From assembly GCF_003337435.1 (NCBI RefSeq), contig NZ_QPJS01000002.1, positions 124,001-188,000 of the forward strand: DNA of 64,000 bases, read 5' to 3'. The notes under the pieces are model-generated. The model ran no database searches, was not told the DNA's origin, and was given only the letters and a program-made list of their open reading frames with translations. Below, piece by piece: positions 14,485 to 58,545 of this stretch. A program made the translations under genes and the position numbers. Position 1 is the stretch's first letter, and every line of letters starts with the position of its first letter. Source of the DNA: Schleiferia thermophila (GTDB lineage: Bacteria > Bacteroidota > Bacteroidia > Flavobacteriales > Schleiferiaceae).

Positions 14485-14488
14485 CTTT

Positions 14489-42337: not shown

Positions 42338-42502
42338 GGGGGCGGCTCAGGTGAGCCCGATGTGGGGAGGCTGCACGGCTTGCATGAGGTGGCCGTAGAG
42401 CCCCGACAGGGGGTCCCGGCTGTATCAGCCGGGACGGAAGCGAAGCGTACCTCGGAGGACACCGACCCCCGCCGGCCTTTAAGCCGGCGGGGGGCATGCC
42501 CC
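42338..42502 (-). repeat. GC-rich structured repeat, family B, copy 1
   Basis: Read on the minus strand it opens GGGGCATGCCCC, then an 11-bp stem CCCCCGCCGGC / GCCGGCGGGGG, TCGG, and GTACGCTTCGCTTCCG. A 10-bp stem GTCCCGGCTG / CAGCCGGGAC and a GGCTCA / TGAGCC hairpin follow. It aligns with 58382-58545. It lies directly after the radical SAM gene but points against it. It is strikingly GC-rich compared with its surroundings. Confidence 0.75.
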
Positions 42503-42552
42503 TAAATAAAAAGGGATTGAAAAAAATATTACAATGTATTGAATGTCGGAAT

Positions 42553-42584
42553 TTTGGGTGATGAGTCGCGTTTTTGTAGGTTTG
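42553..42584 (+). promoter_or_regulatory. Promoter of the Wzz-like / ligase operon, TTTG-N20-TAGGTTTG
   Basis: TTTG (42553-42556) and TAGGTTTG (42577-42584) are 20 nt apart, a full match to the Bacteroidota -33/-7 pattern. The start codon is 26 nt after the -7 element, so the leader is very short. Confidence 0.75.
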
Positions 42585-42610
42585 GCGGAAAATTTTAGTT
42601 TTTCAATGCA

Positions 42611-43642
42611 ATGAAAAGTGGCAAAAAGAAGAAAAATATATTTGATTCATCGGGGATTGTGCTGTTTGCCTGGAGGTGGCGCAGGCCATTGCTGGTCATA
42701 TCCTTGTCTGCCGCAGTATTGTCGTTTATTTTTTCCTCACCTCCTTTTGTATATCCGAGGTACAAGAGTACGGTAATTCTTTTTCCGTCGACTACCTACT
42801 CGGTTTCTAAGGCGCTGCTGCCTCAGCAGTTTGGGGTGAATCAGGATGTGCTACAGTTTGGGGAGGAGCAGCAAGCCGAGCAGTTGCTTCAGATTTTGAA
42901 TTCGGATGAGATTAAAAACAGGATAATTGAAGAATTTGATCTGATGCGCCACTACCGGATTAATCCGAAGGCAAGGTACAAATACACAAAACTCAACAAG
43001 AGGTATGCAAAGAACATTTCCTTTCGCAGGACGGAGTTTATGTCGGTGGAAATCAAGGTGCTGGATGAGTCACCGGATACGGCTGCCATGATAGCCAACA
43101 GGATCGCTGAACTACTGGATGAGGTAAAAAACAAAATTCAGAAAGAACGCGCGGTAAAGGCCCTTGCCATCGTGGAAAATGAGTACTATAGCCTGGCAAA
43201 GGAGATCGAGGAGAAGGAAAACCGCCTGACCGAACTGAGGTTTAAGGGGGTACATGACTATGAGCGGCAGGTAGCTGCTCTGACGGAGCAGTTGGGTAGC
43301 GCTATAGTGAAGGAAGGTCCCGGAAGCAGGAAAGCAAGGGAGATTCAGAACATGCTGGATACTCTGGCTAAGTATGGTGGGCTATATGTATCGCTCAGGG
43401 ATGAGCTGTCGCTTCTGAAGGAAGAACTTGTGAAGTTGAAAACCAAATATGACCAGGCCAAAGTGGATGTGAATGAGTTTTTGCCAGCGACGTTTAAGGT
43501 AAACATGGCTTATCCTGCTGAGCGGAAGACGTATCCGGTCAGGAGTCTGATTGTGCTGTTGAGTTTTCTGAGTGCATTTGTATTTACTATGATTGTAATT
43601 GCTGCAGCGGAAAGTATTCGAAATTCGAAGCTGGAGGGTTGA
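42611..43642 (+). CDS. Wzz-type polysaccharide chain-length / export protein
   Basis: This 343-residue inner-membrane protein has two membrane helices, about 30-48 (PLLVISLSAAVLSFIFSSPP) and 313-333 (SLIVLLSFLSAFVFTMIVIA). They enclose a periplasmic domain with the Wzz entry motif YPRYKSTVILFPS and a long coiled coil (about 180-285, NEYYSLAKEIEEKENRLTEL). A proline-rich PAERKTYPVRS motif precedes the second helix. Such proteins set the length of O-antigen or take part in capsule and exopolysaccharide export. No tyrosine kinase domain is attached. The following ligase-like gene starts within its stop codon (TTGA). Confidence 0.88.
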   Translation: MKSGKKKKNIFDSSGIVLFAWRWRRPLLVISLSAAVLSFIFSSPPFVYPRYKSTVILFPSTTYSVSKALLPQQFGVNQDVLQFGEEQQAEQLLQILNSDEIKNRIIEEFDLMRHYRINPKARYKYTKLNKRYAKNISFRRTEFMSVEIKVLDESPDTAAMIANRIAELLDEVKNKIQKERAVKALAIVENEYYSLAKEIEEKENRLTELRFKGVHDYERQVAALTEQLGSAIVKEGPGSRKAREIQNMLDTLAKYGGLYVSLRDELSLLKEELVKLKTKYDQAKVDVNEFLPATFKVNMAYPAERKTYPVRSLIVLLSFLSAFVFTMIVIAAAESIRNSKLEG

Positions 43643-45069
43643 GGGCGACTGTTTTACATCGACTGATTTACGGTTCAGGACTTTTGTATCTGATCTGTGT
43701 AGCGGTGTTTACTGCTACTGAGAATTATTTGCTCATGGTCATTCCATTTGGTTTGGCTCTTGCGGCTCTTGCGTTTTTGGCTATGGACAAGGTGCTTTGG
43801 TTTCTGTTGCTGAGCACTCCTTTTTCCGTTGAGATATATTTTGAGGACCTGAAGTTTGCGGTGGGAGTACCGGGAGAGCCTTTTATGGCTGGGCTTTTGA
43901 TATTATTTATACTCAAGCTGATTGTGGAGGGGAAGTTTCATCCTCGGTTTTCTGCTCATCCGATGTCAATGACGTTGATGCTGTATCTGGTCTGGATGTT
44001 TATATCGGCAATGGCCAGTTCGATGCCTTATGTATCGATGAAGTATTTTCTGGCCAGACTTTGGTTTGTGGTTGTTTTTTATTACTTGTTTTCGCTCTTA
44101 CTGAAAAAGGAAGAAAACCTTAAAAAGTTTTATTGGTTTTATTTGGCTCCTTTGGTGATTGTAATTCTTTATACCATAGCGCGACACATCGAGTACGGAC
44201 TGACCAAACAGGCCAGTACCTGGGTGATGACGCCTTTTTTCAGGGAACATACGAACTATGGTGCGGCATTGGCCATGTATTTTCCGGTGAGTTTTGTGTT
44301 TGCTTTTTTGATCAAGGACCAACCTTGGATAAAGGGAATTTACATAGGAGTTTTTTTGATTTTAACAGTTGGACTAATCCTGTCGTTTACAAGAGCGGCA
44401 TGGCTTAGTGTGGTAGTAGCTTTTGGAGTGCTGATGGTGTTAATACTTCGTATCAAATGGTATGTAGTATTGGGTGGTGTAGTGCTGGCAGCTGGTCTGA
44501 TTTTATACAATTGGTCGGATATATATATGTCCTTGTCAAAGAATCAGAAGGTATCGAGTGATGATTTGGGAGAGCATGTGACTTCTGCTACCAACATCAG
44601 TACAGATGTTTCGAATCTGGAGCGAATCAATCGCTGGAAGTCGGCCATACGTATGTTTAAAGAGAGGCCGGTGCTAGGTTGGGGCCCAGGGACATATATG
44701 TTTCAATATGCCCCTTTTCAAAAGCCCCATGAAAAAACCATAATATCGACAAACAATGCGGACCTGGGCAATGCTCACAGTGAATATCTGGGGCCATTGG
44801 CTGAAATGGGATTTCCTGGGTTGCTTTTTGTGCTTGCGATTGTACTTCAAATATTCCTACTTGGTCACAAAATTTACAATTCTGCGTTAAAATCGGAGAC
44901 GAGGTATTTGGTTTTGGCGGCATTTTTTGGGCTTATTACATACTTTTCCCATGGTTTGCTGAACAATTTTTTGGATTTGGATAAATCAGCAGTATCAGTA
45001 TTTTCTTTCATTTCGGTTTTAGTTTGTGCCGATTTATACTATCGCCAGAGGGCTGGAAAAAATGTTTAA
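43639..45069 (+). CDS. O-antigen ligase-like membrane protein
   Basis: This 476-residue protein has about a dozen membrane helices (for example LYLICVAVFTATENYLLMVI and VVLGGVVLAAGLILYNW). A large periplasmic loop between about residues 295 and 385 carries the WaaL/Wzy-type motif ERINRWKSAIRMFKERPVLG followed by GWGPGTYMFQYAPF and NAHSEYLGPLAEMGFPG. These are the conserved arginine and histidine regions of the family. It would join polysaccharide chains to lipid A or polymerise repeat units. It starts with TTG overlapping the wzz-like stop as TTGA, so it is translated with that gene. Confidence 0.9.
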   Translation: MRATVLHRLIYGSGLLYLICVAVFTATENYLLMVIPFGLALAALAFLAMDKVLWFLLLSTPFSVEIYFEDLKFAVGVPGEPFMAGLLILFILKLIVEGKFHPRFSAHPMSMTLMLYLVWMFISAMASSMPYVSMKYFLARLWFVVVFYYLFSLLLKKEENLKKFYWFYLAPLVIVILYTIARHIEYGLTKQASTWVMTPFFREHTNYGAALAMYFPVSFVFAFLIKDQPWIKGIYIGVFLILTVGLILSFTRAAWLSVVVAFGVLMVLILRIKWYVVLGGVVLAAGLILYNWSDIYMSLSKNQKVSSDDLGEHVTSATNISTDVSNLERINRWKSAIRMFKERPVLGWGPGTYMFQYAPFQKPHEKTIISTNNADLGNAHSEYLGPLAEMGFPGLLFVLAIVLQIFLLGHKIYNSALKSETRYLVLAAFFGLITYFSHGLLNNFLDLDKSAVSVFSFISVLVCADLYYRQRAGKNV

Positions 45070-45274
45070 TTTCAATTAGTTACTTTTTTAATTTTTTTGA
45101 AACCGACACTAACTCAAATCTCCTATATGATTAGGATCGAAGCATTTTATTAAAGATTTGGTAACAAAAACCGCATTTATATCAAATTTCGGTTAAAAAA
45201 ATTTTATGCAAGCATTGCATTATTCACGGTTTCAATGCAATTTCGCCCTTGCGTTTAACACAAAATTTACACAA

Positions 45275-48200
45275 ATGAAAAAAAGGAGAAGTTTACTCAT
45301 GACCCTTCTCTTATTACTGGGTATGGCTTCGGCACATGCTCAGGAGTTAAGAGTTACAGGTGTAGTAAGGGCAGCCAACACTGGGGAGACCCTGCCTGGA
45401 GCTACAGTGGTAGAAAAAGGCACAAAAAATGCTGTGGCGACCAATTTTGATGGTCGTTTTGAAATCCGTGTCAAGCAAGGTGCCATCCTAGTGGTCAGCT
45501 CATTGGGGATGCAGACTCGTGAAGTAGCCGCACAGCCTAATATGGTCATTGACCTGCAACCTCAGACCCAACAACTAAAAGAAGTAGTAGTATCGGCTCT
45601 GGGTATAGAGAGGGAGCGAAAAGCGGTAGGCTACTCTGTAGAGGAAGTAAGCGGAAATGCTGTGTCTGCATCAGGAGAAGCAAATATGGTATCTGGACTT
45701 TCAGCAAAGGCAGCAGGAATCCAGGTGATAAACTCAAGTGGTGCAGCCGGTGCCTCCAGTTACATCAGAGTACGCGGTCAGTCTACTTTCACTCAAAACG
45801 ACAATCAACCTCTCTTTGTAGTGGACGGTGTACCGATCAACAACTCACAGCTTTTGACCCAAGACTTAAGGGGAGGGGTGGCACTTTCGAACAGGGCTAT
45901 TGACATCAACCCTGACGATATTGAAAGTGTGACAGTGCTCAAAGGTGGTGCAGCAGCCGCGCTTTATGGTACAAGGGGTGCAAATGGCGTAATTTTAATT
46001 ACAACCAAAAAAGGAGCCTTCAACAGGCCTTTCCAGATAGAATACTCAGGTTCAGTGGAGATCTTGGAAGTAAACAAATTGCCCAAACTTCAGAACGAGT
46101 ATGCACAAGGTTATGGAGGTCAGCTTCGCTTGTTTGGACAGCCACTATCTCAGTTTTCATGGGGACCGAGAATCAGTGAATTGGGATTTTTGCCCAACGG
46201 TCAGTTGACTGATGTTGTTTCTTTGATGGTACCTGGCTCAAAAGGAACCGCCAAAGCCTATGATCCCTATGAGTTTTTCCAGAGAGGAAGCAGAATCAAT
46301 AACAGTGTAAGCTTATCCGGAGGAAATGATAGAACCAGCTATGCACTATCGATTGCAAATCTCACTGAAAACGGCGTAATTCCATTGAATACCTTTCAGC
46401 GTACTACCGTCAGGCTTTCGGGTGGTGCAAGGGTGTCCAATTCATTAAAAGTATCGGCTTCTGCCAACTATGCAAACTCTGGCGGTCGCAGAATCCAGCA
46501 AGGTTCCAATACTTCTGGTCTGATGCTTGGTCTGCTGAGAACACCCCCATCTTTCGACAACTCCAATGGGGTAAAGGACCCAACTGATGAAAAGGCATTC
46601 CTGAGCCCGGATGGTACTCAGAGGAGATATTTTACAGGATACGACAACCCATACTGGACCATCAATAGAAACCCATTCTTTGACAATGTAAATCGTCTTC
46701 AGGGGAATGTTCAGATTGACTACGTGCCAGTGGAGTGGTTGAGCGTAATGTGGAGACTAGGTACTGATTTTTATCAGGATAGACGTACTCAGATTATAGC
46801 GCGCCAGTCAAGAGCTGCTGTAAACGGACGTTTGTTGGAAGACAATTACAAATACCACGAATGGAACAGTGACCTGATAGTCACCGCCAGGAAAAATTAC
46901 GAGCGACTGAAGACACAATATCTTGTGGGTTGGAATTTAAACCAAAGATTGCTGGACAATGTCTTCGTGCAGGGAGATAATCTGGCAGTAGAAGAGTTTT
47001 ATAATCTGAGCAATGCGTCCACTATTATTGCAAGTCAGGGTATTGATCGTCGCCGGATAGCAGGTATTTTTGGTGAAGTACAGCTTTCCTGGGATGATCA
47101 ACACTTTATTACCTTAACAGCCCGTGGCGACCAAGCTTCTACTTTTGGCGATGTAAGTACAGTAATTTTTTATCCTTCGGCGAGCTACTCTTGGTTATTT
47201 AGCGAAACATTGGGACTTAATGAAGGACTACTTTCGAGAGGTAAGTTCAGGGCTTCATGGGCCAAAGTAGGTCTTGAGCCGGCCTTTGGTAGCAACCGCA
47301 CTTACTATAGTCGCGCATCTTCTCTTTCGGGTTGGATTGATGGAATTCAATTTCCCTTTAGAGGTGCAACAGGATTTACCTTGGGAAATACAGCCGGCAA
47401 CCCTGCGCTCGGACCAGAATTTACTACTACCACAGAGTTTGGTCTTGACCTAGGATTTTTTGACAACAAACTCAATCTGGATGTTACCTGGTACGACAAG
47501 CTTTCTACCGATCTTATTGTAGCCGTCCCGGTGGCATCATCTTCTGGTTTCAACCAGCTCTTTCAAAACATAGGTAGAATGAGAAACAGAGGATGGGAAA
47601 TTTCTGCAAACTACAGAATATTTGAAAACAACAACTGGGGTGTAGACCTGGGGGCAGTGTATACCTGGTATCGCAATAAAGTGCTAGAGCTTGCCCCTGG
47701 TGTAGATGTTATCAATCTTCCATGGGGATTCTTTGGAGCAAATCAGCGCCTGATGGTTGGGGAGGCATATGGAACCCTCTTTGGCGATGATTGGCAAAGA
47801 GATGCTGATGGAAATGTGCTAGTAGATGAAAACGGTTATCCCATTTACTCGCCTACTGAAGTAAAAGTAGGGGACCCCAACCCGGATTGGCTACTTGGTA
47901 TCACCGGTGGAGTAACCTACAAAAACTGGACGCTCAACATGGTATGGGATATCCGTAGAGGTGGCGACATTTGGAATGGAACCCGAGGTGCACTCTATTA
48001 CTTTGGTACGCATGCCGATGTGGGTGGCGATAGAAATGGTACTATTGTTTTCAACGACGTAGTAAAAGGCAATAGCGGTGTATATGCTCCTGGTACCATC
48101 ATTAATGGCGAGGATGTGTCCGGAAAGCCAAATACCACTCCAATTCCCAACAACCACCTCTCATACGCTGCCGGTCCGTTATCAGGTTTTACAGGTGCCA

Positions 48201-48466
48201 GCCGTCCGTTTATTGAAGATGGTTCTTGGGTGCGTCTGCGTCAGCTGACCATTGGATATACGTTGCCAAACAAAGTGTTTGAAGGTTCTAAATTTATCAA
48301 AGGATTGAGCATTAACTTTACCGGAAGAAACCTGCTGCTCTTTACCAAATACACCGGTATTGATCCTGAAACCAATCTTTCCGGCGCTACCAACAGCCAA
48401 GGTGCTGACTACTTCAATATGCCAAACACTAGAGGGTACATCCTTGGTGTAAGAGCTAATTTCTAA
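45275..48466 (+). CDS. SusC/RagA TonB-linked outer-membrane transporter 1
   Basis: From ATG 45275 the protein has 1063 residues with a signal peptide (MKKRRSLLMTLLLLLGMASA, ending HAQ). A carboxypeptidase-regulatory-like domain (about 25-105, RVTGVVRAANTGETLPGATV) is followed by the TonB box region and the SusC plug (VRGQSTFTQNDNQPLFVVDG, VTVLKGGAAAALYGTRGANG). The 22-strand barrel ends with the outer-membrane terminal phenylalanine (RGYILGVRANF). It imports glycans or peptides together with the SusD protein that starts 18 nt downstream. No degrading enzyme is adjacent, so the substrate is unknown. The upstream ATG at 45206 would bury the signal peptide. Confidence 0.95.
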   Translation: MKKRRSLLMTLLLLLGMASAHAQELRVTGVVRAANTGETLPGATVVEKGTKNAVATNFDGRFEIRVKQGAILVVSSLGMQTREVAAQPNMVIDLQPQTQQLKEVVVSALGIERERKAVGYSVEEVSGNAVSASGEANMVSGLSAKAAGIQVINSSGAAGASSYIRVRGQSTFTQNDNQPLFVVDGVPINNSQLLTQDLRGGVALSNRAIDINPDDIESVTVLKGGAAAALYGTRGANGVILITTKKGAFNRPFQIEYSGSVEILEVNKLPKLQNEYAQGYGGQLRLFGQPLSQFSWGPRISELGFLPNGQLTDVVSLMVPGSKGTAKAYDPYEFFQRGSRINNSVSLSGGNDRTSYALSIANLTENGVIPLNTFQRTTVRLSGGARVSNSLKVSASANYANSGGRRIQQGSNTSGLMLGLLRTPPSFDNSNGVKDPTDEKAFLSPDGTQRRYFTGYDNPYWTINRNPFFDNVNRLQGNVQIDYVPVEWLSVMWRLGTDFYQDRRTQIIARQSRAAVNGRLLEDNYKYHEWNSDLIVTARKNYERLKTQYLVGWNLNQRLLDNVFVQGDNLAVEEFYNLSNASTIIASQGIDRRRIAGIFGEVQLSWDDQHFITLTARGDQASTFGDVSTVIFYPSASYSWLFSETLGLNEGLLSRGKFRASWAKVGLEPAFGSNRTYYSRASSLSGWIDGIQFPFRGATGFTLGNTAGNPALGPEFTTTTEFGLDLGFFDNKLNLDVTWYDKLSTDLIVAVPVASSSGFNQLFQNIGRMRNRGWEISANYRIFENNNWGVDLGAVYTWYRNKVLELAPGVDVINLPWGFFGANQRLMVGEAYGTLFGDDWQRDADGNVLVDENGYPIYSPTEVKVGDPNPDWLLGITGGVTYKNWTLNMVWDIRRGGDIWNGTRGALYYFGTHADVGGDRNGTIVFNDVVKGNSGVYAPGTIINGEDVSGKPNTTPIPNNHLSYAAGPLSGFTGASRPFIEDGSWVRLRQLTIGYTLPNKVFEGSKFIKGLSINFTGRNLLLFTKYTGIDPETNLSGATNSQGADYFNMPNTRGYILGVRANF

Positions 48467-48484
48467 ATTTAAAATTTCAACGCA

Positions 48485-49804
48485 ATGAAAAAGATCAACC
48501 TACTATTAACATCACTTTTGTTGGCAGGGCTCACAGTGAGCTGTTCAAAAAAGTGGCTTGAAGACTATACCGAAGATCCTACAAGGCCCATAGATGTGTC
48601 CGTGAGAGTGCTTTTACCAAGTGCACAGGTATCATATGCCATGGCACAAGGCGATGTGCTCCCCCGAATGACCTCATTGTTTATTCAACAAATGACCGGA
48701 ACAGACCGCCAGTCGCTAGCACATCAGCGATATGCGCAAATTGGTGAAGGTGACTTTAATCAAACATGGGGGTCCAACGGATATTCGGGTGGAATGAAAG
48801 ACCTTAAAATCATCATTGAAAAGACAGAAGGAACGTCGCCAAACTACTCCGGTGTTGCTAAAGTAATGATGGCTATGTATCTGGGGCTTTTCACCGATAT
48901 ATGGGGTGACATTCCGTATTCTGAAGCCTTACAAGGAACAGACAATTTGAATCCCAGATACGACACCCAACAGCAAATCTATCAAACCATCCAATCATTG
49001 CTCGATGAAGCTATAAATGAGCTACAGGCCACTACCAGCGCACTGAAGCCAGGAGCTGAAGATTTGGTACATGGAGGAAATCTAACCAAATGGGTTAAAA
49101 CAGCATATTCCCTAAAAGCTAGATATGCACTTCATCTTAGCAAAAAGCCTGGCTTTAATCCAAATGATGTGATCACTCTGGCCAATCAAGGCATTGATGC
49201 AAATGCCGACAATGCGATGATGGTGTTTGCGGGTCCCCCCAATACCAACCCCTGGTTTCAATTCAATACACAACGTTTGGCGTATATCACCCAGACTGGA
49301 ACTATGTACGACATGATGAAGGCCAAGAATGATCCTCGGATTTCGGTGTATAGATCAGCCGATTCAGCAACTATGCCCTTCTACGGAAGCCAAACTTCTC
49401 CACTGCCTTTTATTACCAATCACGAAACAAAATTTATCATTGCGGAAGCCAAATTCAGGGCAGGAAACTTTACAAGAAATGATCTGGTTCAGGCGGTTGA
49501 AGCAAATATGAACTTTTTGGGAATCCCAGCAGTCGATAGAGATGCGTATTTGACTTTACTTCCACTTACACCTACACTGGAAGACATCATGTATGAAAAA
49601 TATATAGCCATGTTCTCACATGTGGAAGCATGGACTGACTGGAGAAGAACAGATTTTCCGACACTTGTACCTGTTCCAGGTGCCAACCTTCCCGCAATTC
49701 CCCGCAGGTTGCCGTATCCTGAAACAGAAAGACTCTACAACGACAACTTTATAAATCTCACCGGAAATGACGCCTTCTTGAAAAGGTTGTGGTGGGATGA
49801 ATAA
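48485..49804 (+). CDS. SusD/RagB-like outer-membrane lipoprotein 1
   Basis: This 439-residue surface lipoprotein has a lipobox (LLLAGLTVSC, Cys20). The body is a SusD_2-type helical fold with TPR-like units (SGVAKVMMAMYLGLFTDIWG, DIPYSEALQGTDNLNPRYDT, LSLKARYALHLSKKPG-like) and the C-terminal EKYIAMFSHVEAWTDWRRT motif of this branch. It acts as the lid that captures substrate for the SusC partner encoded 18 nt upstream. A strong terminator 18 nt after it closes this operon. It is a different SusD branch from the second copy at 53259. Confidence 0.93.
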   Translation: MKKINLLLTSLLLAGLTVSCSKKWLEDYTEDPTRPIDVSVRVLLPSAQVSYAMAQGDVLPRMTSLFIQQMTGTDRQSLAHQRYAQIGEGDFNQTWGSNGYSGGMKDLKIIIEKTEGTSPNYSGVAKVMMAMYLGLFTDIWGDIPYSEALQGTDNLNPRYDTQQQIYQTIQSLLDEAINELQATTSALKPGAEDLVHGGNLTKWVKTAYSLKARYALHLSKKPGFNPNDVITLANQGIDANADNAMMVFAGPPNTNPWFQFNTQRLAYITQTGTMYDMMKAKNDPRISVYRSADSATMPFYGSQTSPLPFITNHETKFIIAEAKFRAGNFTRNDLVQAVEANMNFLGIPAVDRDAYLTLLPLTPTLEDIMYEKYIAMFSHVEAWTDWRRTDFPTLVPVPGANLPAIPRRLPYPETERLYNDNFINLTGNDAFLKRLWWDE

Positions 49805-49822
49805 ATTCGTATAACCGAAAAG

Positions 49823-49847
49823 GCCGGGCTAAGTCCCGGCTTTTTTT
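49823..49847 (+). terminator. Intrinsic terminator of the first SusC/SusD operon
   Basis: A perfect stem GCCGGG / CCCGGC with a 6-nt loop (49823-49840) is followed by seven T. It lies 18 nt after the SusD stop codon. Confidence 0.92.
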
Positions 49848-50182: not shown

Positions 50183-50213
50183 GCGCTTAAAGATTCATTA
50201 ACACATATAAACC

Positions 50214-53200
50214 ATGAATGGAAAATTTACCCCAATGATGGTTTTTCTGCTAATAACCTGTTTTACCTCAGGAATTTATGCGCAGGCTATTAAAGGAAAA
50301 ATCAGCGACAAATCCGGTCCGCTTCCCGGCGTAAATGTTCTTGTAGAAGGTACTGGTAAAGGTGCTGTGTCCGACATGGATGGCTCATACGAGGTGAGAG
50401 GACTTCCGGCAAATACTAATCTGACCGTAGTGTACTCTTTTGTTGGTTACCGCACGGAGCGCAGGCCCATCAATCTTAAACCAGGTCAGACACTCGAAAT
50501 CAACATTACTATGGCAGAAGAAATCAGTCGCCTCGATGAGGTGGTAGTCGTAGGTTATGGGGTTCAACGAAGACGTGATGTAACGGGTTCAGTCGTTAAA
50601 CTGGGTGCCAAGGAAGTAACAGATATGCCGACACCCAGCTTCGAGACAGCTATACAAGGTAAAGCTGCGGGGGTTCAAATTATAACCGGCAGCGGATTAG
50701 CTGGATCCGGTTCTGTAGTGCGAATTAGAGGTATAGCCTCCATCTCAGGGTCTGGTGATCCGTTGTATGTTGTGGATGGGATACCAATCACACAGGACTT
50801 TTTTATTAAAGGCAATGCTGGAGCAATGAACAACAACCCACTAGCTGTACTTAACCCTGGCGATATCGAGTCTATTGAAATACTCAAAGATGCTTCAGCT
50901 ACTGGTATTTTTGGCTCAAGAGGTGCCAATGGAGTTATTTTAATTACCACAAAGAGAGGAAAAACACCAGATTGGACGTTTAATTTTTCTACAAGAGTCG
51001 GTACATCTTCTCCGGTGGCAAGACCCAATATGTTAAGCGGACCCGAATTCCTTCAAATGTATAAAGAGGCCTGGATCAACGATGGAAAGGTAGGTGTACC
51101 TGTGCTACCTGGTGGCATTAAATGGGAGGATGCCCAGAATATTAATACAAATTGGGTAGATGAAGTAATTAGAGTCGGTGTAAAACAGCGCTATGACCTC
51201 TCTGCAGGAAGACAAACCAATAAATATGACTTTTTTGCAGGAATTTCATTTGATGGCAACCAGAGTTATCTGACCGGTAACAACTATGATCGCTCCAGTA
51301 TTCGGCTCAACGGGGGCTATAATATCACCAGTAAACTAAAAATTTCTGCGAATCTCTCGCTCATAGAGGGGATCAACAATCGTGTAGATGAAGGTTGGGC
51401 AGGCGGTTTAGGCGCGGCCATGTCCACAGCTCTTCCCATTTATCCAATTAGAAATCCAGATGGCTCCTATTTTATAGGTGGCACAAATCCCGTGAGACTT
51501 CGTGAATTAAAAGAATGGAGAACCCGTGAGTTGAGATCCATCTCAGGAATTACCCTCACCTACAATCCTGCTAAAAATCTTTACATCAATCTAAATACCA
51601 ATTATGACTACATGAATCTGGTCGAAGATATCTATGAACCGGCAGAATTGCTGCTGGTAACGGATAGGGTTGGTGACTCAAGAAGATTTACAAACATTAT
51701 AAACAACTGGAACACCTTCCTGACAGCTACCTATGACTGGAAAGTAAATGAAAAAAATCGTTTAAACATAATGGCTGGATTAGAGTTTCAGGAACAGGCT
51801 AGAGGGGGGATGAGCTATTTCTCTACAGTTGCGGGTGCACCCTTCTGGAAAGCTCGCGACATGCTGGACAACAGACAAGATTTCACTCCCGAAAAATCCC
51901 GATTCGGATCCGTATTCAGTCGAATTAATTTTACCAATCAAGAAAAGTATATTGTCCAGGGAGTGATCAGAGCAGATGCCTCTTCCAAATTTGGCCCTGA
52001 CAATCGAGTCGGCTTCTTCCCCTCTGTGAGTGGAGGCTGGATTGTATCAGAAGAAGCCTTTATGAAATACAATCCGGTAATCAACTTTATGAAGGTAAAA
52101 GCATCTTACGGAATAGCTGGTGTAGCACCTCCAGGCAATAGAGACCTGTGGCGATCTTCCTTTGGAATAGATTCCGTGCGCGGTTACAATGGTCAGCCCA
52201 TCCTCTTTCCCTTACTTCTCGAAAACCCAACCCTCAAATGGGAAACTTCCCAAATCTTTGATGCCGGCGTGGAAATGGGATTGTGGGAAGACCGCATCAC
52301 CACCGAGTTCAGTTATTACTACAAATATTCAACCGATGTATTTCTCAATGTATCACTGCCGGGCTACGCCGGATTTGATAACTTTTTTGATAATCTGGCC
52401 ACCATTTACAACCAGGGAGTCGAATGGGTCGTAAAGTCCAAAAACATCGCAAAACAAAATTTTAGCTGGACCACCGAATTCAATATTGCCAGAAACTGGA
52501 ATAAAATTACCGATATCAGTGGTTTCAACGAAGAAGCAGTTTCAGGAGGTACCAACGATACTCGCGTAGTACTTGGCTATCCGGTAGGAACAAACTTTCT
52601 GGTGCGATTCTCCCATGTAGATCCGGCCACAGGCCGTCCTGTGTATCTAGACATCAACGGAGAACCTACCTTTGAGTGGAATCCAGCCAACAGGGTGCCG
52701 GCAGGCCGTGTACTGCCTGATGCCATCGGTGGAGTCACCAACATTCTGAGATACAAAAATTACGACCTCAGTTTTCTGTTTGTGTTCACAATTGGTGGAA
52801 ACATATACGACTCTTCATCCAAGCGACAACTCGGCACATTCGACTCCGATGGATGGAATCATCGTACAGATCAATTTGATCGCTGGAGAAAACCTGGTGA
52901 CGTAGCTACCTATCCTAGACTGACAACTACCCCTGAGACATATGGAACCGGTACACCCTGGATCAACACAACACTCTGGCTGCACGACGCTTCCTATGCA
53001 CGCCTTAGAAACCTGACCATCGGCTATACACTCCCACAAGAAGCAGCGCGTAAGCTCAAAGTCAGAAATGCAAGAATATATTTCACAGGCACTAACCTGC
53101 TTACTTTCACACGTTTTATTGGTCTTGATCCTGAAATTGCACGCGATTTTGAAAACGTAACCGACCGTAATATGAGTGTAAACATCACGTTCCTCACCCC

Positions 53201-53246
53201 ACCTCAGGAGAAAACCTTCAACCTTGGAATTGACATCAGTTTCTAA
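50214..53246 (+). CDS. SusC/RagA TonB-linked outer-membrane transporter 2
   Basis: This 1010-residue protein has a signal peptide (FTPMMVFLLITCFTSGIYAQ). The carboxypeptidase-regulatory-like domain follows (IKGKISDKSGPLPGVNVLVE, about 25-100). After the linker RLDEVVVVGYGVQRRRDVTG comes the plug (VVRIRGIASISGSGDPLYVV and IEILKDASATGIFGSRGANG) and then a barrel ending in NLGIDISF. It forms a pump with the SusD protein encoded 12 nt downstream. Sequence and domain pattern differ from transporter 1 (the TonB-box consensus VVVGYG is present here, VVVSALG there), so this is not a recent duplicate. Confidence 0.95.
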   Translation: MNGKFTPMMVFLLITCFTSGIYAQAIKGKISDKSGPLPGVNVLVEGTGKGAVSDMDGSYEVRGLPANTNLTVVYSFVGYRTERRPINLKPGQTLEINITMAEEISRLDEVVVVGYGVQRRRDVTGSVVKLGAKEVTDMPTPSFETAIQGKAAGVQIITGSGLAGSGSVVRIRGIASISGSGDPLYVVDGIPITQDFFIKGNAGAMNNNPLAVLNPGDIESIEILKDASATGIFGSRGANGVILITTKRGKTPDWTFNFSTRVGTSSPVARPNMLSGPEFLQMYKEAWINDGKVGVPVLPGGIKWEDAQNINTNWVDEVIRVGVKQRYDLSAGRQTNKYDFFAGISFDGNQSYLTGNNYDRSSIRLNGGYNITSKLKISANLSLIEGINNRVDEGWAGGLGAAMSTALPIYPIRNPDGSYFIGGTNPVRLRELKEWRTRELRSISGITLTYNPAKNLYINLNTNYDYMNLVEDIYEPAELLLVTDRVGDSRRFTNIINNWNTFLTATYDWKVNEKNRLNIMAGLEFQEQARGGMSYFSTVAGAPFWKARDMLDNRQDFTPEKSRFGSVFSRINFTNQEKYIVQGVIRADASSKFGPDNRVGFFPSVSGGWIVSEEAFMKYNPVINFMKVKASYGIAGVAPPGNRDLWRSSFGIDSVRGYNGQPILFPLLLENPTLKWETSQIFDAGVEMGLWEDRITTEFSYYYKYSTDVFLNVSLPGYAGFDNFFDNLATIYNQGVEWVVKSKNIAKQNFSWTTEFNIARNWNKITDISGFNEEAVSGGTNDTRVVLGYPVGTNFLVRFSHVDPATGRPVYLDINGEPTFEWNPANRVPAGRVLPDAIGGVTNILRYKNYDLSFLFVFTIGGNIYDSSSKRQLGTFDSDGWNHRTDQFDRWRKPGDVATYPRLTTTPETYGTGTPWINTTLWLHDASYARLRNLTIGYTLPQEAARKLKVRNARIYFTGTNLLTFTRFIGLDPEIARDFENVTDRNMSVNITFLTPPQEKTFNLGIDISF

Positions 53247-53258
53247 ATACAATTAACG

Positions 53259-54641
53259 ATGAAAAAGTTTCTACCCATAACCCTCACAGCAGCTGGAGTG
53301 ATTTTTCTAAGCTCCTGCTCAAAATTATTTGACGTAAGGCCCGAAGGAGTACTTTTGATCGAAGATGCCTTGAAAACTCCCGAAGACTTTGAAAAAGTGC
53401 TTAATTCCTGCTACGACGTTGCAGCCAACTACTACAACGGGCGCATTCAAATGTTAAACGAAGTATTAAGCGACAATCTGGCAGCGCCCATTAACAACAA
53501 CGACTTAAATGAAGTTTACCTGCGAAGGGTGAATTTCTTTAACGGAACCACCAATGGAGTATACCGGGAACCCTACCGCTCCATTTTCCGGATCAATTTT
53601 ATGATTGAAAACTTCGGAATGGTAGAAATGCCCGAATCCCGAAGGCTGACCTTCGAGGCCGAAGGCAGATTTCTCAGAGCTCTTGGACATTTCGAAATCA
53701 TCAAATTATGGGCACAGCCCTATGGATACACAACAGACAACAGTCACCTGGGAATCCGGATACAGAATCAAAATACAGGAACTCAGCTTCAGATACGCAG
53801 CACAGTAAAAGAAGGATACGACGCTATACTACAAGACTTATGGTTTGCTAAAAACCACCTTCCTGCCACCAATGGCAATTATGCAACAAAATATTCCGCC
53901 ATGGCAGCCTTGGCCAAAGTGTACTTTCAAATGAATAAGTTTGACAGTGCAGCCTTCTATGCCGGTCAGGTGATTAATTCAGGCCAGTTTACACTTGAAG
54001 GTATTGATCGATTCAAACTAGGTCCAATTTCAGAAGGAATTTTTATTACAGTTTCCACCCAAACGCCCACCTTACTCGATGGTCGAAGTGGAGCTTTCAC
54101 AGGCAATTATCGTTCTGACAACAATCCCAACCCTACCCTCCGTGCGTCCAAAGAATTTTACAACTTGGTGGCACAAAGACCCAACGACACTCGTTTGTCT
54201 TTTTTTGAAGTCCGAGACGAAGGCCTGCCCACTGAATTTGTAGCAGTTACAAAATTTAATAAAGACGCCTTTAGTATTCCTGTTTTACACCTTACCGAAA
54301 TGATGCTCATCCGTGCTGAATCGTTAGCTGAGCTTAGCCAGAATTTGCCTGAAGCCATCAATCTCATCAATCAAATAAGAGAAAGAGCTTTCGGAGATGA
54401 CAGCGAAAACCTTCCTGCTACTGCCACAGCCATTGAAATTCGCGATGCAGCACGTCTGGAGCGACGAATTGAAATGTTCGCTGAAGGAGACCGCATACAA
54501 GACCTCAAACGCCGTGGGACAAAAGGAGAAAACATCACCGTACGCGGAGCAGCATGGAATTGCCCCGGAATGGTACTTCAATTTCCGGCCAGCGATATCA
54601 ATGAAACATTTCTTGGAAATCCCGAAGGAGGATGTAATTAA
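53259..54641 (+). CDS. SusD/RagB-like outer-membrane lipoprotein 2
   Basis: This 460-residue lipoprotein has a lipobox (AAGVIFLSSC, Cys20). The RagB/SusD fold is recognised from FDVRPEGVLLIEDALKTPED, the TPR-like unit RRLTFEAEGRFLRALGHFEI with KLWAQPYGYT, and NYATKYSAMAALAKVYFQMN. The C-terminal motif is RLERRIEMFAEGDRIQDLKR. It pairs with the SusC encoded 12 nt upstream. Two further exported proteins follow closely and probably complete a nutrient-uptake operon on the cell surface. Confidence 0.93.
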   Translation: MKKFLPITLTAAGVIFLSSCSKLFDVRPEGVLLIEDALKTPEDFEKVLNSCYDVAANYYNGRIQMLNEVLSDNLAAPINNNDLNEVYLRRVNFFNGTTNGVYREPYRSIFRINFMIENFGMVEMPESRRLTFEAEGRFLRALGHFEIIKLWAQPYGYTTDNSHLGIRIQNQNTGTQLQIRSTVKEGYDAILQDLWFAKNHLPATNGNYATKYSAMAALAKVYFQMNKFDSAAFYAGQVINSGQFTLEGIDRFKLGPISEGIFITVSTQTPTLLDGRSGAFTGNYRSDNNPNPTLRASKEFYNLVAQRPNDTRLSFFEVRDEGLPTEFVAVTKFNKDAFSIPVLHLTEMMLIRAESLAELSQNLPEAINLINQIRERAFGDDSENLPATATAIEIRDAARLERRIEMFAEGDRIQDLKRRGTKGENITVRGAAWNCPGMVLQFPASDINETFLGNPEGGCN

Positions 54642-54662
54642 TAATCTTAAAACACTAATCCA

Positions 54663-55139
54663 ATGAAAAAATCCTTACTAACAATTTGTACAATATATCT
54701 GGCAATTGCTTGTCGCCCCGAACGCAAAGGCGAACTTGGCCCGGACCCGGATCTTGCCTTTGGAATAGTTGGCAGATGGCAGGCTGCTGAACTCATTATT
54801 GAAGATTTTAAATCTCCACTTGGAGACCAGCTCAACGTTTCAGAAGACTTTCCAACCCTCGGACAGCCAATGGAAATTATTTTCAACAATGATAATACCT
54901 ATCAGATTATCACTTCGGGAAAAGTACCCCACAAATTTGGCACCTCAGGCACATGGGCATTCAACAATCCGGAATTTCCCACTAAAATGGGCATCTTCAA
55001 CAACAACGGTGAATCCGACACAATATACCTCTTATCAATGGCTCGCGACTATGACCCGGTCTGGAAAATTCAAATTCGCCGAAACGATTGCAATGACGAA
55101 CTCTACGTCGGTTATAATCTAACCCTAATCAGAAAATGA
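54663..55139 (+). CDS. Putative lipoprotein, lipocalin-like
   Basis: This 158-residue protein starts MKKSLLTICTIYLAIACRPE, a lipoprotein signal with Cys17. The rest is a small beta-barrel pattern resembling bacterial lipocalin-like domains: GIVGRWQAAELIIEDF, then IIFNNDNTYQIITSG and FGTSGTWAFNNPE, and a final KIQIRRNDCNDELYVGYNLT strand pair. It is 21 nt after the second SusD gene, and its stop codon overlaps the next start (ATGA). It likely sits in the outer membrane as an accessory of the uptake system. The ligand is unknown, and the family assignment is by pattern only. Confidence 0.72.
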   Translation: MKKSLLTICTIYLAIACRPERKGELGPDPDLAFGIVGRWQAAELIIEDFKSPLGDQLNVSEDFPTLGQPMEIIFNNDNTYQIITSGKVPHKFGTSGTWAFNNPEFPTKMGIFNNNGESDTIYLLSMARDYDPVWKIQIRRNDCNDELYVGYNLTLIRK

Positions 55140-56026
55140 ACATGAAAAAAATTTTTCTGGCGTTATTCGCTCCCGTAGTGCTGCATTTTCAGGCAAGCAG
55201 CCAGGTAGTCACCAGCGAACCCCTTGAAATTGATCCCTCCAAACCAGTTAAACTCATTGTAAACCTGGCACTACTCGATCAAAACCTGGATTTTGTTCAA
55301 AACCTGATTCAGGATGCCAACGATGGTAAAGACCTTTATATATGGACCTGGAAACCAAGAGAACATCCTCAAGGTCATCCATTTGTAAATGGCACTGGTA
55401 GCCAACCTTGGAAAAATTCTAATGAAGCACTGAAAATGACTAAAGAATCCAACCTCGTTTATAGTTTTACTTTTGAACCCTCATTAAAAGATTGGTACGA
55501 AGTAGATGCCGCCACCGTATACAAAGAAGATGTACATTTCCTCGTAAAACCAAAAGACGGCGGTGGCTACGGAGAGCCCGACCGCAAGTCTCCCGATCTC
55601 GTACTCAAAGTCGATCCGCCCTCCACAGTCATTCCTCCGGCCTTCTTCTTCCCTTCACAACCACAAAAGGACGACATCGTGGCCGTCATCTATGACAATG
55701 CCCGCGAAGACAAGCCCTCTATGCAAAACCTCGACCCAGACTCAGCATACCTTGCTGTCTCAGTTGTCGATACAGCCGGCATCGTCTACAACCTATCTAC
55801 GGCTTTTAACGCCGGCAACAACCCAAATATGAAGTTAAGCTACAGAGGAAAAGGCATGTTTAGAAAACTACTCATCCCTGACGAGTTTATCAATGAAAAC
55901 AGACCCGCCAACTTGCCGCCCGATGCCGTAATCCAAACCATGCGTATTGTCATCGTCAAAAAGAGATTCCTTACCGGCCTCGATCGCAGCAACTACGAAA
56001 TTGAAATCAAATTCGATTGCCCCTAA
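55136..56026 (+). CDS. Exported two-domain beta protein of the SusCD operon
   Basis: This 296-residue protein has a signal peptide (IFLALFAPVVLHFQASSQ); a second in-frame ATG at 55142 may be the true start. It appears to contain two beta-sandwich domains joined by a proline-rich linker (KVDPPSTVIPPAFFFPSQPQ). The first has DLYIWTWKPREHPQGHPFVN and WKNSNEALKMTKESNLVYSF, a pattern like the starch-binding modules of SusE/SusF-type proteins. The second has DDIVAVIYDNAREDKPSMQN. Its position behind SusC, SusD and a lipoprotein suggests glycan or polymer binding on the surface, but no lipobox is present. This function is inference. Confidence 0.7.
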   Translation: MNMKKIFLALFAPVVLHFQASSQVVTSEPLEIDPSKPVKLIVNLALLDQNLDFVQNLIQDANDGKDLYIWTWKPREHPQGHPFVNGTGSQPWKNSNEALKMTKESNLVYSFTFEPSLKDWYEVDAATVYKEDVHFLVKPKDGGGYGEPDRKSPDLVLKVDPPSTVIPPAFFFPSQPQKDDIVAVIYDNAREDKPSMQNLDPDSAYLAVSVVDTAGIVYNLSTAFNAGNNPNMKLSYRGKGMFRKLLIPDEFINENRPANLPPDAVIQTMRIVIVKKRFLTGLDRSNYEIEIKFDCP

Positions 56027-56052
56027 AAAAGAGCATAGAGATTTTATTCACG

Positions 56053-56084
56053 AAAAAGCTGCCCCTCATAAGGCAGCTTTTTTT
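56053..56084 (+). terminator. Intrinsic terminator of the second SusC/SusD operon
   Basis: Stem AAAAAGCTGCC / GGCAGCTTTTT with an 8-nt loop is followed by T residues, 26 nt after the last gene. The A-rich 5' arm lets it work on both strands. Confidence 0.88.
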
Positions 56085-56085
56085 A

Positions 56086-56115
56086 ATAGAAAAGCCGGCT
56101 AAAACAAGCCGGCTT
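56086..56115 (-). terminator. Intrinsic terminator of the Hsp20 gene
   Basis: The minus strand reads AAGCCGGCT-TGTTT-AGCCGGCTTTTC, a 9-bp inverted repeat followed by T residues. It lies 28 nt beyond the Hsp20 stop codon. Confidence 0.78.
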
Positions 56116-56142
56116 CGAGCTCCAGTGCCATTTTCAACGCTC

Positions 56143-56589
56143 TTATTTGATTTCAATCAATCGGGATACTTTCACTTCTTCCTTGTTCTTCTTCGGCAGT
56201 ACAATTGTTAAAATTCCATCTTTATAGTCACCCGAAATTTTTTCTTCATCAATTTCTCCTTCAGGTAAAGTGAAAGACCTTGAGAAACTTTGATGATAAA
56301 ACTCTCTTCTGGTGTACTTGCCATTCTCTTCTTTATGCTCCTCTTTCTTGTCAAAACTGATGGTCAGAACACTCTTTTCAAGATTTACTTTGATGTCTTC
56401 TCTTTTCAGTCCAGGTACTGCCATCTCAAGTGTATAGTCTTTCTCAGTTTCCTTTATGTTTACAGCCGGATAGGAACTGGACCTTGTCACTACCGCCGGA
56501 AGGCGGAAGAAGTCATCGTTAAAAAACTCATCCAGTATAGATGGGAACATTCCGAAAGCTGTTCCGGGTCTTCTCATTAGTGTGCTCAT
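56143..56589 (-). CDS. Small heat shock protein, Hsp20/alpha-crystallin family
   Basis: This 148-residue ATP-independent chaperone holds unfolding proteins in oligomeric assemblies. The alpha-crystallin domain spans about residues 40-140 (YPAVNIKETEKDYTLEMAVP, GLKREDIKVNLEKSVLTISF, then EFYHQSFSRSFTLPEGEIDE). It ends with the conserved YKDGILTIVLPKKNKEE and a C-terminal V-x-I-like tail (RLIEIK). The N-terminus contains the phenylalanine-rich segment ILDEFFNDDFFRLPAVV. A single gene with its own terminator. No heat-shock-specific promoter motif was recognised upstream. Confidence 0.95.
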   Translation of the reverse strand: MSTLMRRPGTAFGMFPSILDEFFNDDFFRLPAVVTRSSSYPAVNIKETEKDYTLEMAVPGLKREDIKVNLEKSVLTISFDKKEEHKEENGKYTRREFYHQSFSRSFTLPEGEIDEEKISGDYKDGILTIVLPKKNKEEVKVSRLIEIK

Positions 56590-56931
56590 GGTGTTTGAAT
56601 TTTTGGTTAGACTACTCCCTACCAGTCAAACCAAGTGCCCACCCACTTTCCCAGACAATTTTGCCTAATATTTTACCGATTTCAATAAAAAACACGACAT
56701 ATTGACATCTGTTTATCCAACTAACCACAAAAATAAGACATAATGGCATCAATTGGAGAAATAAAGAAAACATCGTCTACAGCACAACAAAGGATATCCA
56801 CCCAGGACCTTTACTTATATTATCCAGATCATTGCTCTCCAATAGGTTCTCAGGATTAACCAACCTTTCTGTCCAGCACTGACATTTATAAGCTACTTTC
56901 GCACCTGTTTTCCCAATTAAAGCCTCTAATT
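56590..56931. other. Divergent intergenic region between Hsp20 and lpd
   Basis: These 342 nt hold no convincing open frame. A near-consensus -7 element TACTTTCG lies at 56894-56901, 30 nt before lpd, without a clear -33 TTTG. Confidence 0.5.
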
Positions 56932-58323
56932 ATGGATTTTGACCTCATCGTATTAGGTACAGGCCCAGGTGGCTATGTAGCAGCTATCAGAGCCTCTCAG
57001 CTCGGTATGAAAGTAGCAGTAGTAGAAAAAGAGTCACTCGGTGGTATCTGCCTCAACTGGGGCTGCATTCCCACCAAAGCACTATTAAAAAGCGCTAACG
57101 TATTCGAATACATCAAGCACGCCAGTGATTACGGTATAGAAATTAAAGGCGAAGCCAGACCCGACTTCAGCTCGGTAATCAAAAGAAGCCGCCAGGTAGC
57201 TGCCGGCATGAGCAATGGTGTAAATTTTCTGATGAAAAAAAACAAAATCACCGTCATATCAGGCTATGGTAAAATTCAGCCAGGCAACAAAGTCGAAGTT
57301 ACCGATTCCCAAGGCACTAGCAAGACCTATTCCGCTCCCCATATCATCATCGCCACCGGAGGCCGCAGTAGACAACTACCCGCACTTCCCCAAGACGGCA
57401 AAAAAATCATTGGCTATCGCGAAGCCATGTCACTTCCAGAACAGCCCCGACGCATGGTAGTCGTAGGCTCAGGCGCTATAGGCGTCGAATTTGCCTATTT
57501 CTACGCCACCATGGGCACCGAAGTCACCATTGTCGAATATATGCCCACAATTGTACCGCTCGAAGATGAAGAAATTTCAAAACAACTTGAGCGCTCCTTC
57601 AAAAAGCAAGGCATTCGCATTCTTACATCTTCCGAAGTCATCGCCTCCGACACCTCCGGCCAGGCAGTTCAAGTAACCGTCAAAACTCCAAAAGGAGAAG
57701 AAACCATCCAATGCGACATCGTTCTGTCTGCAGTTGGCATTGTCGCTAATATCGAAAACATTGGCCTGGAAGAAGTAGGCATTAAAACCGAAAAAGGAAA
57801 AATTACCGTCGACCAATACTATCGCACCAACATTCCGGGTTACTACGCCATTGGCGACTGTGTACCAGGTCAGGCACTTGCCCATGTAGCCTCAGCCGAA
57901 GGCATCATTTGCGTCGAAAAAATCGCAGGCCTTCACCCCGAGCCGCTCAATTACAACAACATCCCGGGCTGTACCTATTGCTCACCCGAAATCGCCAGCG
58001 TAGGCTACACCGAAAAAGCCGCCCGCGAAGCCGGCTACGAAATCAAAGTTGGAAAATTTCCCTTCTCAGCCAGTGGAAAAGCCTCCGCAGCCGGTCATAA
58101 AGACGGCTTTGTCAAAGTCATTTTCGACGCTAAGTATGGCGAATTTCTTGGATGCCACATGATAGGCGCCAACGTCACCGAAATGATTGCCGAAGCCGTT
58201 GTAGCCCGCAAACTTGAAACCACAGGACACGAAATCATAAAATCAGTTCATCCGCATCCCACAATGAGCGAAGCCATCATGGAAGCTACGGCCGATGCAT
58301 ATGGTGAAGTCATACATCTCTGA
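56932..58323 (+). CDS. lpdA: Dihydrolipoyl dehydrogenase
   Basis: This 463-residue flavoenzyme reoxidises lipoamide in 2-oxo-acid dehydrogenase or glycine cleavage complexes. The FAD-binding motif is LIVLGTGPGGYVAAIRASQL. The redox disulfide is Cys40/Cys45 (GGICLNWGCIPTKALL), the NAD-binding motif is MVVVGSGAIGVEFAYFYATM and the second FAD motif is YYAIGDCVPGQALAHVASAE. The C-terminal active-site His-Glu pair lies in SVHPHPTMSEAIMEA. Length is standard. It is not next to other complex subunits, so it may serve several complexes. A terminator and a family B repeat follow. Confidence 0.96.
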   Translation: MDFDLIVLGTGPGGYVAAIRASQLGMKVAVVEKESLGGICLNWGCIPTKALLKSANVFEYIKHASDYGIEIKGEARPDFSSVIKRSRQVAAGMSNGVNFLMKKNKITVISGYGKIQPGNKVEVTDSQGTSKTYSAPHIIIATGGRSRQLPALPQDGKKIIGYREAMSLPEQPRRMVVVGSGAIGVEFAYFYATMGTEVTIVEYMPTIVPLEDEEISKQLERSFKKQGIRILTSSEVIASDTSGQAVQVTVKTPKGEETIQCDIVLSAVGIVANIENIGLEEVGIKTEKGKITVDQYYRTNIPGYYAIGDCVPGQALAHVASAEGIICVEKIAGLHPEPLNYNNIPGCTYCSPEIASVGYTEKAAREAGYEIKVGKFPFSASGKASAAGHKDGFVKVIFDAKYGEFLGCHMIGANVTEMIAEAVVARKLETTGHEIIKSVHPHPTMSEAIMEATADAYGEVIHL

Positions 58324-58347
58324 TTCCATCTTTCGACAAGTCATAAG

Positions 58348-58371
58348 CCCGGCCACACACCGGGTTTTTTT
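58348..58371 (+). terminator. Intrinsic terminator after lpd
   Basis: A 5-bp stem CCCGG / CCGGG (58348-58364) with a 7-nt loop is followed by seven T. It lies between the stop codon and the family B repeat, so the repeat is probably outside the main lpd transcript. Confidence 0.8.
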
Positions 58372-58381
58372 ATTCTTAGCA

Positions 58382-58545
58382 GGGCGTGCCCCCGCGCGCC
58401 GGCCTTGCGGCCTTACCGCGCGGGGTCGGGCTGCTCCGGGGTGCGCTTCGCTCCCGTGCTCCACTGCGCTGCGCACCGCCCTGCGGGCGCCCTCCGCATC
58501 CCTCACGCACCTCCCCAGAAGGCCGCACGCCCCCACATTCCGACC
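58382..58545 (+). repeat. GC-rich structured repeat, family B, copy 2
   Basis: It begins GGGCGTGCCC, followed by a long stem CCCCGCGCG / CGCGCGGGG that encloses GGCC-TTGC-GGCC, then TCGGGCTGCTCCGGGGTGCG and CTTCGCTCCCGTG. It matches copy 1 in order of elements. The first stem uses different bases in the two copies, but both are fully paired. It is downstream of lpd in the sense direction. Open frames through it are composition artefacts. Confidence 0.75.

Follow-up and report, generated by a model that had tools for sequence, protein, structure and literature searches.

Dispersed folded repeats of Schleiferia thermophila as probable GC-rich relatives of the Flavo-1 candidate RNA

Introduction

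A stretch of 64,000 nucleotides from Schleiferia thermophila (Bacteroidota; Flavobacteriales; Schleiferiaceae; NCBI RefSeq assembly GCF_003337435.1, contig NZ_QPJS01000002.1, positions 124,001 to 188,000 of the forward strand), called the window hereafter, carries two sets of repeats, families A and B, that open in a similar way. This raises the question whether both belong to one superfamily of folded elements and, if so, how such elements spread and what keeps their fold. Alignments and model searches support the placement of A and B as probable GC-rich branches of the superfamily of Flavo-1 (RF01705; Weinberg et al. 2010, PMC2864571), and the elements are read, with a probability of about one half, as non-autonomous, mobile, folded members of that superfamily that are under selection in place. 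As repeats they are ordinary; what sets them apart is that they form a GC-rich branch, missed by the Rfam model, of a phylum-wide family that is still unexplained, and that there is evidence both of movement and of selection in place.

Flavo-1 has been a candidate RNA since 2010, without an assigned function in the available parts of PMC2864571, PMC9723704 and PMC9029176; the family or its accession is also named in the available text of PMC3765529 and PMC7682815, and Rfam files it as 'Gene; sRNA'. In the portions of the literature surveyed, neither family A nor family B is described, and Flavo-1 is not presented as mobile. The present data alter the view of Flavo-1 as to its ends, its missing closing stem, its GC-rich relatives, its likely mobility and the apparent selection on its fold after insertion, so that its function and its mobiliser become testable.

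Fold of the element

The fold, comprising a closing stem P1, a hairpin P2, a long-range stem P3/P3b and inner hairpins, was shown by covariation. From the 5' end, GG is followed by P1 (5 nt), a linker, the P2 hairpin, [T/C]C, P3 with one mismatch, an internal loop, P3b and the inner hairpins P5 and P6, after which the 3' half supplies the 3' strands of P3b, P3 and P1. The self-complementary GGGC..GCCC opening described in the sequence-only reading is present in both window copies of B, but it forms a local palindrome in only 9 of 29 A, 55 of 90 B and 5 of 18 C-type elements (the last from other genomes). The conserved closing stem is instead the long-range P1, formed between the opening and the distal 3' end of the element. 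All of its pairs form in 29/29 A, 89/90 B and 16/18 C-type elements, a tally that omits three B rows truncated at contig ends. Over the three types P1 has eight Watson-Crick solutions, namely GCGTG/CACGC, GCATG/CATGC, GGGTG/CACCC, CCGTG/CACGG, GCGCC/GGCGC, GCGCA/TGCGC, GCGTT/AACGC and GCGAT/ATCGC. As had been noticed, the two window copies have different sequences in the long GC stem, P2, and each pairs completely there. The A elements were parsed by regular expression, which 29 of 37 loci passed, with false early starts trimmed in some; 30 C-type loci were fetched, of which 20 passed the parser and 18 entered alignment A3 (two over 130 nt were left out), and at least four of the 30 (L221, L246, L248 and L249) showed no element by eye.

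That the stems would be conserved in further copies was borne out over 93 distinct B rows. These derive from 96 matches (42 from this genome, 26 from genome G198, 19 from G200 and 9 from others), so that the counts are dominated by three genomes, and they were aligned to the model as alignment A2, so that the pairing counts lean towards the model structure. In A2, 96.0% of cells were paired, compared with 84.8% after shuffling; double changes occurred at 24 of 35 pairs, compared with 12.2 in shuffled and 7 to 11 in slid alignments, and double-change cells numbered 283 against 77.4 in shuffles. In the MAFFT alignment A1, to which no structure was fitted, 17 of the 35 pairs carried double changes (7.0 shuffled, 4 to 11 slid), and in A3 they were seen at 11 of 20 pairs (6.4 shuffled). 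P3 is paired in 98.1% of cells in B. P3b, first seen in an RNAalifold prediction and lying outside the B covariance model (R1), is paired in all A2 rows with letters on both sides, as GC, AT, TA and CG types. P4, a stem of five inner pairs first drawn, includes two pairs that clash with the better supported P3b and a doubtful third (columns 108-123); all were kept in R1 and in the covariation counts. Furthermore, conservation is 88-100% at many unpaired positions of the B core across the 93 rows, most of which belong to three genomes that differ in kinship.

The architecture is distinctive enough to be searched without sequence. A finder built on it alone (GGG + P1 + linker + hairpin + NCGG + C[CT] + P1') returned five matches in the window, three A and two B elements, and none with these five masked; 50 dinucleotide shuffles gave a mean of 0.56 matches and a maximum of 2.

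Relationship of families A and B to Flavo-1

The suggestion that A and B are subfamilies of one superfamily was supported by the shared P1, the short linker, the variable P2 followed by [T/C]CGG, and the T-rich 5' flank. The A elements of genomes G200 and G218 have the ends of B and Flavo-1 (GGGCGTG ... TCGGGCT ... TCCCTCACGC), and the A copies of S. thermophila join the superfamily because they resemble these A elements in DNA, with 72-86% identity over part of their length. The core stem P3 of Flavo-1 (TCGGGC ... TCCC) is found in B and with the same sequence in the A elements of G200 and G218, and in diverged form in the A elements of S. thermophila. Elements of all branches seen are short (about 80-250 nt), gene-less and dispersed.

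The C-type elements provide the connection to Rfam. The Rfam run covered 20 of the 30 C-type loci, and Flavo-1 matched at its gathering score in 13 of these 20, on the strand opposite to the orientation used here; L223 and L222 fell just below the cut-off of 42 bits, at 38.4 and 35.9. The C-type elements share their ends and P3 core with the elements described here. A and B differ from Flavo-1 in being GC-rich, mostly longer and equipped with extra inner hairpins. The Flavo-1 model gave no match to A or B in the window, nor, at E <= 0.5, in six A or B loci (L022, L061, L062, L074, L160 and L175). The Rfam model is without P1 and P2, since both flanks are left unpaired in it.

A covariance model built from the 18 C-type elements only (R2) bridged this gap in part. 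R2 found all 12 of the G200 and G218 A loci given (E 1.7e-9 to 3.8e-4) and six of the eight B loci given (all but L022 and L061; E 3.3e-5 to 0.066), and it matched copy 1 of B in the window weakly (E 0.82, and 0.33 in a second search). None of the 13 own-genome A loci given was found by R2, nor was copy 2, which joins the superfamily through the B alignment.

Maintenance of the fold in place

In copies that stayed in place, the fold appears to be kept by selection. An orthologous copy lies between the same two genes in G200 (L174) and G218 (L145), in a region of 73% identity over 2.1 kb, and the two share an inner hairpin seen in no other of the 96 A2 rows. Compared by eye, they differ at a P1 pair (G-C to T-A), a P3b pair (T-A to C-G) and a P5 pair (G-C to A-T), each time with pairing kept; the P2 tip has been swapped for another able to pair, and the spacer 3' of the element is unalignable. 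C-type orthologues likewise keep their pairing, in two P1 pairs and an inner stem (L243/L244), in P2 and an inner stem (L222/L223) and in one inner pair (L228/L230), although the L243/L244 difference could also have arisen through replacement by another copy.

Four B copies of S. thermophila permit a comparison of the core with adjoining sequence. They are alike from the element 5' end through 479-741 aligned nt, which includes a tail of about 350-610 nt, and their 5' flanks are unrelated. Over six pairs of copies, with the P2 tip left out and gaps ignored, 0-3 differences in 107-108 core bases stand against 88-120 in 323-359 tail bases, that is, 97-100% identity in the core and 65-74% in the tail. 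The core is far less changed than the tail, and therefore core identity by itself is no sign of recent spread. In the same pairs of copies the P2 tips are identical at 17-19 of 21 positions, which speaks somewhat against gene conversion.

These comparisons also bear on the idea that the elements are plain quasi-palindromic repeats without function, in which template switching during replication would hold the arms complementary. Nearly exclusive Watson-Crick pairing and P2 tips that are replaced wholesale yet remain paired are what such a process would leave, but it does not account for the conservation of unpaired core positions or for a core that resists change beside a decaying tail, and this explanation is considered very improbable.

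Flanks and mode of spread

The mobile-element reading supposes that the element would insert, and so spread, next to T-rich DNA that is single-stranded or nicked, and that it would be moved in trans by an enzyme recognising the folded strand, more likely the Rfam strand with its GGA/GGA loops. After insertion, at least in some copies still live, the folded core would stay selected, either because it serves the host or because it remains a substrate of the machinery. In agreement with such a target, a T-rich tract of about 12-25 nt adjoins the 5' side of B in three genomes and of A in S. thermophila; a minority of copies lack it. A target duplication of 3 bp or more was seen in 0 of 39 B and 1 of 20 A copies. 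The first 3' base is probably part of the element, since most copies of a genome agree in it: here it is A in 92% of the B and in 85% of the A copies, and in G198 as in G200 it is G in 84%.

Presence and absence could be followed at two places. The gene before copy 2, which has Pyr_redox_2 and Pyr_redox_dim domains and is read as lpd, has orthologues in G200 and G218 with no element behind them, where a terminator and then a tRNA-like stretch are found; conversely, a gene of G200 has a copy 23 nt past its stop codon, and the orthologous gene of S. thermophila has no element. Because the downstream genes differ, neither case is an exact empty site. Copy 2 had no blastn match in plasmids and phages, and the core pattern had no exact match in viral contigs.

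On the Rfam strand the T-rich tract becomes an A-rich stretch after the element, with a fairly sharp edge in G200, and the common tail of the four B copies becomes an extension on the 5' side. Such an arrangement would fit a retroposon like a short interspersed element (SINE), in which an RNA of the Rfam strand with an A-rich 3' tail is copied into T-rich nicks by a trans-acting reverse transcriptase. No reverse transcriptase was seen beside elements when the fetched loci were scanned crudely for motifs, target duplications are lacking, and the tract may simply be the target, which makes this route quite improbable. Rather unlikely, too, and offered tentatively, is a broader view that would take Flavo-1 with its branches A and B as phylum-wide mobile structured elements, functional after insertion and moved by an unrecognised mobiliser, possibly as SINE-like retroposons with an A-rich tail.

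Search for a mobilising enzyme

Transposases associated with repetitive extragenic palindromes (REPs), or RAYTs, were the obvious candidates, because RAYT genes of the Bacteroidetes subclass 2.6 have atypical flanking structures according to the available part of PMC6006769. In this explanation the elements would be REP-like and moved by a RAYT or other Y1 (HUH) transposase of the IS200/IS605 superfamily, which suits a folded element with a T-rich side and no target duplication; G012, G095, G004 and G199, with 1-3 B copies each, also possess Y1 genes (2-9). Against it, a search of this and 15 other genomes found the presence of RAYT or Y1 genes unrelated to copy number, and the candidate was rejected. 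No Y1_Tnp match at E <= 0.001 was obtained in G200 (at least 30 B copies) or in G218 (70% complete), G198 (at least 125 B copies) has one 60-aa Y1_Tnp piece below the cut-off, and six of eight host-family members without B have 1-3 matches. With Y1 absent or unrelated in three copy-rich genomes, the explanation is disfavoured and appears improbable, although copies can be old and a lost enzyme may have acted in the past.

The one Y1_Tnp gene of S. thermophila (L082, G000:C1:430618-430959; DHVH ... YIKNQ) resembles subclass 1.2 as described in the available text of PMC6006769. AT-rich AACGATTAAAATCGTT hairpins, which belong to another repeat, flank it, and a degenerate Flavo-1-like element (R2 E 0.57) is found on its 3' side. 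Both sides of L111, a Y1 gene of G199, carry a hairpin of another kind. A crude regular-expression scan for HUH and reverse-transcriptase motifs (200 sequences, fetched loci) returned nothing beside the elements. The neighbour genes were also rejected, both as a mobiliser and as a commonly regulated function: they are unrelated, with 139 Pfam families each in at most 3 of 100 neighbour genes and PADLOC labels in at most 2 of 100 each.

RNA or DNA

Whether the fold acts as RNA or as DNA can be approached through its pairs. In P1, P3, P5 and P6, G.T pairs occupy 0 of 1727 cells, compared with 25 of 214 in nine tRNAs folded by minimum energy as a rough control. In DNA folding against shuffles, the Rfam strand gave z-scores of -2.91 and -5.63 and the other strand -1.81 and -4.26; by eye, the Rfam strand also recovers the structure drawn from covariation best. 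On that strand the conserved internal loops are GGA/GGA, which may form G.A pairs. Taken together, these results lean towards a role at the level of DNA or of a folded substrate, with an RNA reading possible.

Placement relative to genes belongs to the same question. The sequence-only reading had stated that B is not strictly placed in sense, and this was confirmed. With genes called by a simple script based on codon usage, a sense position behind the upstream gene was seen here for 27 of 35 callable B copies and 18 of 20 callable A copies, and elsewhere for only 10 of 26 copies examined in G198, 11 of 17 callable (of 19) in G200 and 12 of 19 callable (of 20) at C-type loci. Sense placement in 3' untranslated regions (3'UTRs) was rejected as a general rule, since the G198 copies examined do not follow it.

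Another explanation is a functional structured RNA or 3'UTR element that would be transcribed by itself or together with host genes, with a fold that would protect or end transcripts and with occasional duplication adding copies. The Rfam Flavo-1 matches, the pairing kept in place, the better z-scores of the Rfam strand and the own-genome sense placement all agree with it. The missing G.U pairs in the four stems and the missing sense bias in G198 do not, and neither does RNA sequencing (RNA-seq) of Flavobacterium psychrophilum, which in the available part of PMC9723704 shows no clear strand preference, Flavo-1 matches being seemingly either sense or antisense to transcribed regions and many lying outside them. 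This explanation is a real possibility, though an unlikely one.

Several results weigh against the reading of A and B as mobile folded elements under selection. No mobilising enzyme was found, and no empty site with both flanks was obtained. The comparison of core and tail assumes that both moved jointly, and gene conversion could also keep the core uniform. In S. thermophila, 45 of 55 callable A and B copies together lie in sense behind a gene, a bias that would be needless for a purely selfish element. Among all the pairs drawn, G.T combinations number 36 against 19 A.C, and the figures become 14 against 19 only without one pair thought to be wrongly drawn. One T.G position is kept in 14 of 18 C-type rows and is RNA-like on the strand opposite to that of Rfam. 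Copy 2 alone, on its own strand, folds modestly better than its shuffles (z -1.81), and the count of further pair types in the C-type elements was equalled by 36 of 500 shuffles.

Copy number, distribution and comparison with known systems

By R1, B has at least 44 copies in this genome, copy 1 among them, and family A occupies 26 places in it, one of them partial. Repeats of this kind break assemblies: two contigs end inside B copies (G000 C6:63760-63868 and C2:517722-517830), probably because of the repeat, which makes the copy number a lower bound. Family A is found in 3 of 88 genomes of the host family (S. thermophila, G200 and G218), and B likewise occurs in these three, whereas eight other family members tested were without it. 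An R1 sweep of 198 phylum genomes gave matches in at least four. A pattern of the P3 region occurs in 33 of 296 phylum genomes, compared with 7 genomes, one match each, for the reversed pattern; as the fetched loci show, a match of this pattern does not always mark an element. A 24-mer of B matches metagenome-assembled genomes (MAGs) of Chitinophagales and Cytophagaceae, and Flavo-1, a family of the Bacteroidetes, has matches within the host phylum.

Among known systems, the elements resemble REPs, bacterial interspersed mosaic elements (BIMEs) and REP doublets forming hairpins (REPINs) with their RAYTs in being dispersed in many gene-less copies able to fold single-stranded. REPs are palindromes of 20-40 bp (available part of PMC3733652) with a GTAG or GTGG tetranucleotide (available part of PMC6006769), whereas A and B are much longer, multi-stem and without RAYT linkage. 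With miniature inverted-repeat transposable elements (MITEs) they share short length, lack of genes and dispersal, but they show no target duplication, and their terminal pairing is just 5 bp and kept as pairing, not as sequence.

HEARO (IscB omega-RNA) elements are structured and multicopy. A and B are likewise structured, multicopy and patchy, and no Rfam match to a group II intron or HEARO was obtained in the window or in 15 further loci.

Features of the window and minor observations

Both B copies were found with the features first described, but the intervals first given (42338-42502 and 58382-58545) overshoot by 44 and 37 nt at the element 3' side. The ends listed below were fixed by alignment with other B copies. 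The training sequences of R1 include both window copies, whose R1 E-values (1.4e-13 for copy 1) are therefore favoured. Used as a DNA query, copy 1 matches only itself at full length; at 15 further places the match covers just 35-93 bases of the query.

Table 1. Elements, stems and flanking features of families A and B in the window.
Feature	Position	Strand	Remarks
B element copy 1 (GGGCATG ... CTCATGC)	42382..42501	-	R1 79.6 bits; ends common to other copies
Copy 1 P1 5' strand GCATG	42495..42499	-	pairs CATGC 42382-42386; compensatory to copy 2 GCGTG/CACGC
Copy 1 P1 3' strand CATGC	42382..42386	-	
Copy 1 P2 hairpin (CCCCCGCCGGC/GCCGGCGGGGG)	42466..42493	-	
B element copy 2 (GGGCGTG ... CTCACGC)	58382..58508	+	R1 101.2 bits; as query, 40 places in own genome, itself counted
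Copy 2 P1 5' strand GCGTG	58384..58388	+	pairs CACGC 58504-58508
Copy 2 P1 3' strand CACGC	58504..58508	+	
Copy 2 P2 hairpin	58390..58425	+	
Copy 2 P3 5' strand GGGCTGC	58428..58434	+	pairs GCATCCC 58496-58502, one C.T mismatch; copy 1: GGTGTCC/GGCCACC
Copy 2 P3b 5' strand GGG	58438..58440	+	pairs CCC 58490-58492; copy 1: GAG/CTC
T-rich 5' flank of copy 2	58365..58381	+	looks like 3' part of upstream gene's terminator
Decayed tail of copy 2	58509..58894	+	common to B copies L026, L027, L030
Family A element	1236..1409	-	architecture finder
Family A element	9591..9766	+	architecture finder
Family A element	22832..23006	-	architecture finder

Some copies carry additional sequence. In the Cytophagaceae MAG G199, the two short B-like copies (L144 and L148) have both flanks in common, and L144 also has an outer inverted repeat, ACTTAAA/TTTAAGT; the G199 repeat may be longer for this reason. 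Four G200 A elements (L261, L263, L267 and L269) have extra insertions of a few dozen nt at a similar place of the inner stem, after ACAT. Two B copies of S. thermophila (L023 and L024, on G000 C4 and C2) have a long common 3' region, in which an opposite-strand gene looks like a candidate PD-(D/E)XK (Rpn-type) nuclease. Elsewhere in the window, a SAM riboswitch (RF00162) lies at 14488-14604, upstream of an open reading frame of 1235 aa.

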